Positions 43,988 through 47,949 of a DNA stretch of 64,000 bases are shown one piece after another. Both the position numbers and the translations under genes were made by a program. Source of the DNA: Candidatus Panguiarchaeum symbiosum (GTDB lineage: Archaea > Asgardarchaeota > Njordarchaeia > Njordarchaeales > Panguiarchaeaceae); the NCBI GenBank assembly GCA_024720975.1, contig JANJXX010000001.1, forward strand, positions 250,811 to 314,810, read 5' to 3'. Every line of letters begins with the position of its first letter. The first letter of the stretch is position 1. The notes below the pieces were generated by a model. It had not been told where the DNA came from and made no database searches. It saw nothing but the letters and a program-made list of their open reading frames with translations.

Positions 43988-44737
43988 TTAATCCTCAATA
44001 AATAAATCAAGCTTCTGCCCTTTCTTTCCTAGAACCCTATCTATAGTTTCTTGTGAAAGAAGCACTTGAAGAAAGGCCCTTGAGTCACGCAGAAGCTCTC
44101 TGAAGTTTTTGGTTCCTATCTGTTTCGCAAGAAAACTCATAGCCCTAAGTACATAATTTACGACACTGATGCAAAGCTCCAGTCCATAATCTGTGAGCTT
44201 AAATGCTTTTCGGACCATATGATGGGTTGGTGGAATAACTAAGATGTTTGATTTTGATGTCATGTACGCGTCAGATATAATTATAACAGGCTTCGTTGCT
44301 GGTAAGTGATATTCAAGATCTAGTACTTTCAATATTTTATGGTTTAAGCATATTATCGCAGTATCGAAGTCCTGCTCGATCATGTCGTATATCTTGTTTT
44401 TCACCTGAAACCTCTCAAACAAAATTTCTAGCTCCGGTACGCTTAAATTATCGAAGCACTCCTTGATGCTTATCACATAGTCTTCCTCACTTATAACTCC
44501 ATATGGTGTCACTAGGTACAATAGAACCTTCTCGCCAGTGCTCTCTAGTCGCATTACCGCTCTTTGCAGCCTAGTGAACACTGAGTTGTACAAGGCACTA
44601 GCTACTGAGGGAATATAGCGACCCTCATCCCTAAGCCTTGCTAGGAAGCTGTATATATCCACTTCATCGATATCCCAGACGCTTATCTTGCCTTTAATTC
44701 CCTCTATACATGGCGATTCAAGGATGACTATATGCAC
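43988..44737 (-). CDS. Unknown 249-aa protein, third gene of the E2-like operon
   Basis: Alpha/beta protein with strands at the start (MHIVILESP), LLYLVTPYGVISEEDYV near 90 and PVIIISDAYMT near 150, followed by a helical C-terminus. The VTPYGVISEEDY region weakly recalls DUF6884/YaaA-like proteins, but I would not assign it. GTG 44737 with GAGGG seven bases upstream. It starts 11 bases after the E2-like gene, so it belongs to the same operon. Function unknown. Confidence 0.65.
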   Translation of the reverse strand: MHIVILESPCIEGIKGKISVWDIDEVDIYSFLARLRDEGRYIPSVASALYNSVFTRLQRAVMRLESTGEKVLLYLVTPYGVISEEDYVISIKECFDNLSVPELEILFERFQVKNKIYDMIEQDFDTAIICLNHKILKVLDLEYHLPATKPVIIISDAYMTSKSNILVIPPTHHMVRKAFKLTDYGLELCISVVNYVLRAMSFLAKQIGTKNFRELLRDSRAFLQVLLSQETIDRVLGKKGQKLDLFIED

Positions 44738-44748
44738 CAGAATTCCCT

Positions 44749-45324
44749 CTATAGGTTTATGAAGCTTATGCCCCTTCCAAGCTGTTGAACCACTTTACTT
44801 TTTTTAGTTGATACTATAGAAAACCATATGAGAAAGATACTTAAGTAATGCGCTATGCCTGCATAAGGAGAATTTTTTATCCAAATTTGCCTCAAAATGG
44901 GGGGTATACACATAAATGGCGCCCCACCTGTTTCTCTATCGATGATTCTCCTGAACATGAGGTCTTCCTTAGATGTTGGATCATCCGCAAGTCTAGGTAA
45001 AGCTCGTGGATATGTTCTCGGGCATAAAATTGATATTGTAATCTTTTTAAACTGGTCTGAGTGCTCTTCGCCAAGTAGTTTGGTACAGTCAACATCAACA
45101 AGAAATTTTCCGCCCTTGACATACCTAAGATTTTCAAAAGGTATGTTTTGATTAAACTTTTTCCATGCGGCAAAGGCACTTATCTCTTCTTTAACACGGT
45201 TGGGGTCCTCTGCAGGGTGTTTATCCACATATATCAATGGTATTTCATCTAGAAAATTCCAGTATCCAACTATGTTTATTCTCAATTCTATTCTCAACAC
45301 GTGAGAGTTACTCATGATTCCCAC
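44749..45324 (-). CDS. E2-like (ubiquitin-conjugating fold) protein, candidate
   Basis: 191 residues whose layout follows E2 enzymes: a basic/acidic helix (NRVKEEISAFAAWKKFNQ, 42-59), a strand ending KFLVDVDC, the strand ITISILCP followed by TYPRALPRL (compare E2 YPxxPP), then GGAPFMCIPPILRQIWIKNSPYAGIAHYLSIFLIW, which mirrors the E2 active-site stretch xICLxIL..W.P...L...L..I..L. The likely active Cys is C139 and Trp W148. The HPN motif is not conserved. GTG 45324 overlaps the zinc-protein stop by one base. No E1, ubiquitin-like or JAMM gene is in the window. The family assignment is from pattern only. Confidence 0.6.
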   Translation of the reverse strand: MGIMSNSHVLRIELRINIVGYWNFLDEIPLIYVDKHPAEDPNRVKEEISAFAAWKKFNQNIPFENLRYVKGGKFLVDVDCTKLLGEEHSDQFKKITISILCPRTYPRALPRLADDPTSKEDLMFRRIIDRETGGAPFMCIPPILRQIWIKNSPYAGIAHYLSIFLIWFSIVSTKKSKVVQQLGRGISFINL

Positions 45325-45695
45325 TATTTACCTTTTAGTATCGCTTGAGGGGTAATGAGTGTGTACTTCGCTTGCCTGCCACATAGATCGCATTTAGGCA
45401 TCTTCGGTTTTCTTCTTGGCCATAGGAGCCACTTATGTTTCGGCGAGATTGACGTTAAGCTTTCAAGACAAAACTCACATATTGTTATTCCTAACTTAGC
45501 CGGTATCATAATGAAGCTCGCATCATGTAACTTGCACACATCACATTTAGTTATGTCTTTAAATATAGGTCGAGGTACTATAAAAGCTGACGCTGCAAAG
45601 CCGAGTAGCGTTAATAGTTCGATACACTTCTTGCAAACTCTGAGGGGCATATCAAGCTCTTTCCTGTCCTCTACTACTATACTCAAATCGAGCAC
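45324..45695 (-). CDS. Four-CxxC zinc protein, first gene of the E2-like operon
   Basis: 123 residues with four Cys pairs: C21/C24, C51/C54, C73/C76 and C102/C105, spaced about 26, 18 and 25 residues apart. That permits two zinc sites, either as tandem ribbons or interleaved as in C4C4 RING-like domains; no His ligand is apparent. The first pair lies in VCKKC, the last in KCDLCGRQAKYTLI. GTG 45695 is the longest start, ATG 45650 also plausible. It abuts the E2-like gene. A RING-like E3 role is speculative. Confidence 0.6.
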   Translation of the reverse strand: MLDLSIVVEDRKELDMPLRVCKKCIELLTLLGFAASAFIVPRPIFKDITKCDVCKLHDASFIMIPAKLGITICEFCLESLTSISPKHKWLLWPRRKPKMPKCDLCGRQAKYTLITPQAILKGK

Positions 45696-45894: not shown

Positions 45895-47949
45895 ATGCTA
45901 ATAAAGCTCTGGGAGCGAAGATTCGACTCTGAGATCAGGGGTATTCATGTAGCTGATATAAATTCTGATGGACTTGATGAAGTGATCTTAGCCAGCCACG
46001 ATTCTAGGATATATGCAATCTCACATAATAAGGTTTTGTGGTCAACTGAAGAACAAGAGTTTCCCGGTGAGAATGTTACGGTTATTAAAACATCCATGGG
46101 AAAGCCCTACCGCATCGTTGGTTCTTTTCATAAGGAGTTGATATACTTCGATTTAGAGGGAAAAAAACTCCATAAGACATCATTATCCTCCTGGATTGTG
46201 CGTCTGATCAATATCGGTCCTAGTAAGTATGGCATTGATGCACTACTAGCAGTAGACCTCAGGGGAACAATTTATTGCGTTGATCCAGAGGGGAATATTT
46301 CATGGAGACTTGAAAAGGCGTTTCAAGAGAACAGTCTTAACCGTATGCTATATGGAATAGCTGTTGATAATGAGTTACAAAGAATTTTTCTAGCTGATAG
46401 GCATGAAATTAAGGTAATAGACTTCGATGGAACTCTAAGACAAACTAAGAGTATAACCCGCGAGGATATTCATGGAATAGCGATAGTTAATATCGTTCAA
46501 GAGAGCCACCACAAAGTAAAGATGCTCGCTGTTGGAACAAGAGGGGGAGTTATCCTCCTTGATCTTGTCACTCTAAAGGAATTGGCGAGGACTGATCTTG
46601 GTTCTAAAAGAGAAACCCGTGTACTGCTATCATGTGACATCAACAGCGACATGAACGATGAAGTATTCATAGGCTCTTGGTCCGAGGATCAAGTGATTGT
46701 CCTGGAATACAATGAGAAAGAGAAAAAGCTGAAGGAAATAGCAAAATACAACATTGAAGGAAATCCACTCTGCATCCTAGCTGGCGATTTTCGCGGCTGT
46801 TTTCAGAAGGAGATTGTTATCGGAACTGATGGGGATCGCGCCTATGCAGTAATCTGGCCTAAAGACGTTATTGAGCTCGAGGCTAGCGTCTCATTGCACA
46901 GCATTTGTTTTGGAAATACCTTAGGATATGGTCCACAGGACATTTTACTTAGGTCTAACAAGGAAACAATGACTTGCTATTCTTTTGTTCCGCGCGTGTG
47001 GTCAAAACTCAATAACTTTAATACTCTTGAGGGCATGCTGTATGCAATAATACCATCAACTGCAAAGATTAAGACCGATAAAGTTGTTATACTTGATACG
47101 AAAAATCGAAAGGTAGCCAGCGCATCTCTTGATAAGAAAAAGATATCACTTTGTGAGATACCATTTAAGGCAGCGTATAAAGGAGGTATATCCGAACTTA
47201 CTGTTGAAGTTGACAACAAAGCGCTTCTGAGAAGTTTTATTTTAGTCCCAGACACTGGTAAATTGACGGTGCTTACTAGGAGCCTTGCCTTGGCCGAAGA
47301 GGACATTATCACTATAGATGATATAAAAGTCGATAAAAAAGAACTAGAGGTCAAATCCAGAGGACTCGAAATAGTCAAAACCCTTGTCAAGGACAACAAA
47401 CTTAAGCTAGGGGTGGTAAGGAACACTAGTGATATAGCCCGCGTGGAAATTTCAGTGTACTCTTACAACGAGCAAAACAAAGAGAGACAAATGATGCTAA
47501 AATACAATTTCATGGTAGTTCCATTGGAAACATTACGTGCTGAGTTACAAATTGATGAGATGATCACTACCGAAGACGCTATAACTCTCCATTTGCGGAA
47601 TAACTCTGGAAAAGAGATACCATACAATATCATCAGCGATGGTCCCCTCAATATTAAAGCTTCTGGCGAGCTTTTGCCCCATTCAGAGAAACCCGTGAAA
47701 CTTACAATTTCAGTAAAATCTGATGAACTGCAGATTGAAGTAAACCAGGTTCTAGATCTAACGTATGGAGATTACTTAAGGAGGACAATCAAAATCCCGA
47801 TTAGATCTCGCGTACTGAATGTAAGCGCTATCAATGAGCGCGCTAGACGGATATATGCGGCTACCAAAGACCTAAGAGTCGTTTTCGAGACTCTGAGTAA
47901 AGATTTGAATTTGTCCGAAGAAGTTCTTAAGAAGGTCGTAAGATTGTAG
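45895..47949 (+). CDS. Intracellular beta-propeller protein with C-terminal ear-like domains
   Basis: 684 residues without signal peptide. The first 400 form a propeller with FG-GAP-like blades: HVADINSDGLDEVILASHDSRIYAI at about 19-43 and SCDINSDMNDEVFIGSWSEDQVIVLEY at about 244-270. Ig/adaptin-ear-like beta sheets follow (VEISVYSYNEQ, AITLHLRNNSGKEIPYNI), then a C-terminal helix (LRVVFETLSKDLNLSEEVLKKVV). The arrangement recalls BBS2/BBS7-like propeller-GAE proteins, but this is resemblance only. Divergent from the E2-like operon across a 200-base spacer containing TATA-like CTTATATAAAGG and TTTAAAAATAG. Confidence 0.65.
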   Translation: MLIKLWERRFDSEIRGIHVADINSDGLDEVILASHDSRIYAISHNKVLWSTEEQEFPGENVTVIKTSMGKPYRIVGSFHKELIYFDLEGKKLHKTSLSSWIVRLINIGPSKYGIDALLAVDLRGTIYCVDPEGNISWRLEKAFQENSLNRMLYGIAVDNELQRIFLADRHEIKVIDFDGTLRQTKSITREDIHGIAIVNIVQESHHKVKMLAVGTRGGVILLDLVTLKELARTDLGSKRETRVLLSCDINSDMNDEVFIGSWSEDQVIVLEYNEKEKKLKEIAKYNIEGNPLCILAGDFRGCFQKEIVIGTDGDRAYAVIWPKDVIELEASVSLHSICFGNTLGYGPQDILLRSNKETMTCYSFVPRVWSKLNNFNTLEGMLYAIIPSTAKIKTDKVVILDTKNRKVASASLDKKKISLCEIPFKAAYKGGISELTVEVDNKALLRSFILVPDTGKLTVLTRSLALAEEDIITIDDIKVDKKELEVKSRGLEIVKTLVKDNKLKLGVVRNTSDIARVEISVYSYNEQNKERQMMLKYNFMVVPLETLRAELQIDEMITTEDAITLHLRNNSGKEIPYNIISDGPLNIKASGELLPHSEKPVKLTISVKSDELQIEVNQVLDLTYGDYLRRTIKIPIRSRVLNVSAINERARRIYAATKDLRVVFETLSKDLNLSEEVLKKVVRL

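Follow-up and report, generated by a model that had tools for sequence, protein, structure and literature searches.

A UFC1-type E2 enzyme in an Asgard archaeon and the probable outline of an archaeal UFM1-type conjugation pathway

Which protein-conjugation system, if any, is served by a compact three-gene locus of Candidatus Panguiarchaeum symbiosum? The locus lies within a 64,000-nucleotide stretch of contig JANJXX010000001.1, analysed here as a whole and referred to as the window, from a genome of the Njordarchaeales, an order of Asgard archaea whose position is within or close to Heimdallarchaeia (PMC10307638). On the minus strand, it encodes a 123-amino-acid (aa) zinc protein with four CxxC motifs (positions 45324-45695), a 191-aa E2-like protein (44749-45324), and a 249-aa protein (43988-44737). 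The zinc and E2 genes share one base, the last of the former and the first of the latter, and a gap of 11 bases separates the E2 gene from the third gene. These open reading frames (ORFs), their overlap and spacing, and the segment order of the 191-aa protein with its TYPRALP and MCIPPIL motifs were all as described in an original prediction made from the sequence alone, which had seen in the locus an E2-like protein and an E3-like zinc protein. We estimate a probability of about 0.86 that this locus supplies the E2 for a UFM1-type pathway of protein conjugation in archaea. Asgard archaea are the archaeal group closest to eukaryotes, and this E2 is related to UFC1, which attaches UFM1 to proteins in animal and plant cells.

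Judging from sequence conservation, the E2 and zinc genes are beyond doubt genuine coding genes rather than chance ORFs, because both are conserved in six relatives from the order (31-56% identity for the E2 and 27-54% for the zinc protein), with Cys139 of the E2 and all eight CxxC cysteines of the zinc protein invariant. Relatives sampled in the order include Candidatus Njordarchaeota M288 and, from the window's own genus, Njordarchaeota B13_G17. The E2 gene begins with a GTG codon, an ATG at codon 4 being a possible alternative start.

The 191-aa protein matched the Pfam UFC1 family (PF08694) across residues 25-165 with an E-value of 0.0025, and a single-sequence search of the PDB returned UFC1 chains only, with weak scores. 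A family profile built from seven homologues and searched against 177,635 PDB sequences retrieved 26 UFC1 chains (E=2e-8 to 1.5e-5); no other protein scored below E=0.5, and no E2 other than UFC1 was matched up to E=1. The profile alignment spans the whole length of UFC1, including the N-terminal IP...AGP..W..R.KEE, the YP....P strand, the active cysteine, and W...G[IL]AH. An AlphaFold2 model based on 18 homologues (mean predicted local distance difference test score, or pLDDT, of 83, with a core above 90) bore out the UBC-type fold implied by the original prediction, and the first 27 ranks of a Foldseek search against the PDB were all UFC1 chains with a probability of 1.00, at about 17-22% identity in the fold alignments. 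Cys139 (MCIPP; codon at 44908-44910, minus strand), already proposed as the active cysteine, aligns with that of UFC1 (position C116) and is retained without exception in close homologues (7/7) and in aligned Asgard homologues (18/18). The 191-aa protein is hence, by alignment and modelled structure, an E2 of the UFC1 kind and not of the ubiquitin kind, with a predicted catalytic activity. Eukaryotic contamination was considered as a source of the gene and rejected because of this low identity to UFC1, the 410-kb length of the contig, and the recurrence of homologues across the order.

Two alternatives bear directly on this assignment. The original prediction had looked to the ubiquitin cassettes of Caldiarchaeum, in which a ubiquitin-type E2 works with a small RING E3. 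An E2-like fold next to a cysteine-rich protein would fit this model, and Caldiarchaeum and other Asgard archaea do carry such cassettes (PMC6043591). However, ubiquitin E2s reached only a probability of 0.54 or less and E-values of 0.1 or more in our profile and fold searches (RWD domains likewise fell far below UFC1), the zinc protein matches no RING, and the partner E1 identified below is of the UBA5 type instead of a two-domain ubiquitin E1. A canonical UBC E2 (UQ_con) had no match in the source genome at E<=0.001, although the controls for this search were uninformative. Overall, we consider a ubiquitin-type enzyme very improbable. The second alternative, a catalytically dead E2 variant of the UEV or RWD kind acting as a scaffold or modifier-binding protein, draws on the presence of UEV proteins in Asgard ESCRT systems (PMC9192718) and on the surroundings of Cys139, which read CIPP or CMPP in this E2 family, as opposed to CLG or CLT in the E2s of the Asgard cassettes described below and in human UFC1 (where LTD follows the cysteine). 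We see very little chance of this either, given that Cys139 and H159, the latter in a GIAH motif whose UFC1 equivalent is GLAH, are both invariant across the 18 aligned proteins, and that the window E2 is the only one found to pair with the E1 of the source genome.

For the UFM1-type pathway, the original prediction's expectation that E1, ubiquitin-like, and JAMM genes might lie elsewhere held true: profile searches of the window's own genome (G000, 81% complete) located an E1 and a modifier, the latter followed by a JAMM gene. This genome encodes exactly one UBA5-type E1, one UFM1-like modifier, and one E2 of these kinds. The E1 (G000:C27:56427-57194) matched a profile of Asgard cassette E1s at E=6e-77, and the best PDB match of the E1 family profile was UBA5 (1e-45, vs 1.9e-29 for ThiF). 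Its catalytic Cys195 lies in CNVSLPTTM, the human UBA5 counterpart being CAASLPTTM, and the underlying CxxS[L/I]xTT motif is shared by Asgard cassette E1s, with a few exceptions (e.g. loci L041 and L038), and human UBA5, while none of the non-Asgard relatives listed display it. The modifier (G000:C19:117379-117720) ends in ...FQIASAEMLG-ITGST, i.e. a single terminal Gly108 and a short tail, and its family profile placed UFM1 chains at the top of the PDB matches (E=0.0075) and aligned the archaeal glycine, which is conserved, with Gly83 of UFM1. The JAMM peptidase gene (G000:C19:117796-118518) follows 75 base pairs after the modifier gene; its homologues retain the E, HSHP, and S..D residues, and one of them passes the Prok-JAB model at 6e-5.

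These components co-occur well beyond the Njordarchaeales. Among 228 Asgard genomes, the E2 was detected in 29, the modifier in 31, and the E1 in 42, with all three present in 26 (Fisher 5e-26), and every genome with both an E2 and a modifier also encodes an E1. Many of these 26 genomes carry compact E1-JAMM-modifier-E2 operons, the Pfam UFC1 model was matched above its own cut-off in 12 other Asgard genomes, and the families found beyond the order include members from Helarchaeota Hel_GB_A and Jordarchaeia QZM_A3. In a tree of 56 E1s, Asgard cassette E1s and human UBA5 formed a clade (support 100/99), within which human UBA5 joined one Asgard subgroup (98/92). Because this tree includes a single eukaryote and a limited outgroup sampling, it represents a lead and not a proof of an Asgard origin, and the position of human UFC1 in the E2 tree, which has long branches, was not used as evidence. 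E1-like and beta-grasp proteins often serve sulphur transfer in archaea, and the E1 here keeps the CxxC zinc site of its MoeB/ThiF relatives, but a sulphur-transfer or tRNA-thiolation module (Urm1/SAMP-like) in which conjugation is incidental, an option also raised in the original prediction, is likewise very improbable, since sulphur transfer needs no E2, the E1 bears the UBA5 catalytic motif and in the tree groups with UBA5 and apart from the MoeB/ThiF-like E1s sampled, and JAMM-modifier-E2 operons recur.

The same survey showed several variations in gene organization. In several Asgard families, the modifier and the UFC1-type E2 form one ORF of 270-280 aa (L225:4584-5402, L226:4775-5587, L228:3316-4137, L229:4087-4923, and L237:4196-5008), and close relatives of these fusions have separate genes, with a modifier that ends exactly at ...IIDRGIVG. 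Parallel UFM1-like systems can be present within a single genome, as some Njordarchaeales encode a second full cassette of E1, E2, and modifier, and even a third E2 (L022, L023, L027; G008:C211, L031). In several genomes of the order, a conserved SMC-like gene, together with three linked ones, lies upstream of the UBA5-type E1 gene (L082:3680-10670; also L084, L090, L092, and L094).

Several observations weigh against an archaeal UFM1-type pathway and have to be set beside this evidence. The window E2, at 17.9 bits, does not reach the Pfam gathering score of PF08694 (25 bits), and it lacks the TAK motif found in eukaryotic UFC1, the equivalent stretch reading DRETGGAPFMC; because of this absence, we describe the protein as a UFC1-type homologue and not as UFC1 proper. 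The link between the modifier and UFM1, as judged from sequence comparison, is weak on its own and is the weakest of the chain, leaning on genomic context: it was reached by profiles only, and a single-sequence PDB search with the modifier gave no match. The genes for the E2, E1, and modifier steps are scattered over three loci of the source genome, the pairing of E2 and E1 is by elimination in a genome that is 81% complete, and in one relative (G005, 76% complete) the E1, modifier, and JAMM were present and the E2 was not found. Finally, no Njordarchaeales genome passed the Pfam cut-off for the E3 component UFL1 (PF09743), searches within the order yielding only sub-threshold winged-helix matches and one of these searches also picking up Methanocaldococcus jannaschii. 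UFL1 is nevertheless widespread in the phylum (above cut-off in 90 of the 228 Asgard genomes), so that parts of the E3 of this pathway do occur in archaea.

Compared to eukaryotic UFMylation (UBA5-UFC1-UFM1), the archaeal set shares a UFC1-type E2, a single-domain UBA5-type E1 with C-x-x-S-L-P-T-T, and, in the source genome, a small beta-grasp-like modifier with one terminal glycine and a short tail. It differs in that the E1 is without the C-terminal extension seen in UBA5, the E2 is accompanied by a unique four-CxxC protein, and the predicted processing peptidase is a JAMM enzyme, whereas the eukaryotic one is the papain-like UFSP (Peptidase_C78), for which neither the 228 Asgard genomes nor any positive control gave a match. 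With the Caldiarchaeum and Asgard ubiquitin cassettes (ubiquitin, E1, UQ_con E2, RING E3, and Rpn11-like JAMM), related Asgard loci share the operonic modifier-E1-E2-JAMM logic, but the E1, E2, and modifier families are different ones, no RING is recognisable, and the genes are dispersed in the source genome. On this comparison, the system would be a new form of UFM1 conjugation found in archaea, with JAMM apparently in place of UFSP and without a recognisable UFL1.

According to a 2015 survey, archaea and bacteria lack Ufm1 (PMC4327156), and one from 2023 described UFM1 and UFC1 as eukaryote-only and UBA5 as derived from bacteria, with UFL1 and DDRGK1 coming from Asgard archaea (PMC10183829). 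We found no description of an archaeal UFM1/UFC1 system in the literature searched, although preprints and most subscription journals were outside its scope and an earlier description is possible. Given an Asgard set of E1, E2, modifier, and protease, and a human UBA5 that branches from within the Asgard E1s, the pathway would date back to an archaeal ancestor, and Asgard archaea would supply minimal systems for testing the original role of UFMylation, possibly the release of ribosomes from the membrane translocon.

From the conserved catalytic residues, we infer the following sequence of reactions. JAMM would trim the ITGST tail from the modifier and thereby expose Gly108, which the UBA5-type E1 would adenylate, holding the modifier as a thioester on Cys195. 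The modifier would then be passed to Cys139 of the window E2 and transferred to a lysine of the target, probably with the help of the zinc protein, and JAMM may also remove it from targets. Our best guess for this target would be the ribosome at the Sec61 translocon. Eukaryotic UFMylation releases 60S ribosomes from SEC61 (PMC10937380), and in Njordarchaeota B77_G9 the modifier and Sec61-beta form an in-frame fusion in a 192-aa ORF (L085:1225-1803, G008:C167; MLG joined directly to APPMSEEFW...GAGLLRFYEEE) that matches Sec61_beta at E=1.8e-12. In G005, Sec61-beta comes just after the modifier and JAMM genes, two genes from the modifier (L086:1788-3087). This gene linkage is suggestive of a ribosome or translocon target. 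A broader scenario, in which UFM1 conjugation predates eukaryotes in Asgard archaea and already acted at membrane-bound ribosomes, with the zinc protein as a primordial non-UFL1 E3, is speculative and in our view has clearly less than an even chance of being correct.

Within the order, the zinc protein family and this E2 share one distribution of exactly seven genomes, in each of which the zinc gene immediately precedes the E2 gene. No other gene is so constantly linked to the E2, which makes the zinc protein the leading candidate for its partner. A role as an E3-like protein or E2 cofactor, proposed from this linkage, is tentative, with odds a little short of even; such a protein would offer a small new candidate class of E3. 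The constant linkage agrees with the E3-like role originally proposed, but the RING-like nature that came with it found no support: Pfam gave no RING above cut-off, the PDB gave no match by sequence, and the model of the protein (pLDDT 74.5) had no PDB fold match. A second candidate partner for ligation is a coiled-coil protein whose gene neighbours that of the E1 in the order and which contains a conserved ETPRGxVPTxES motif; in other Asgard cassettes (L016, L017, and L018), a related motif starts an ATPase-like protein. In addition, some Asgard operons encode, after the E2, winged-helix proteins that match EAP30/Vps36 (L197:2220-3254 and L199:2188-3225; Pfam 1.7e-9 and 7.5e-9), which by analogy are possible E3-like parts since UFL1 and DDRGK1 are also winged-helix proteins.

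Conservation of the locus as a trio, as first envisaged, holds for the zinc-E2 pair, which is kept in seven genomes, but not for the 249-aa gene. Homologues of the 249-aa protein, which has no Pfam match, occur in 8/10 genomes of the order, and the only genus in which they adjoin the E2 is that of the window. The 249-aa gene is likely co-transcribed with the E2, but because of this restricted adjacency we rejected it as a conserved partner, and the distribution of its homologues suggests that it is probably an incidental neighbour. On the other side of the locus, and divergent from the zinc and E2 genes, a 684-aa protein with matches to FG-GAP and BBSome-like beta-propellers is encoded at 45895-47949 on the plus strand, and is found in the same place in the sister species.
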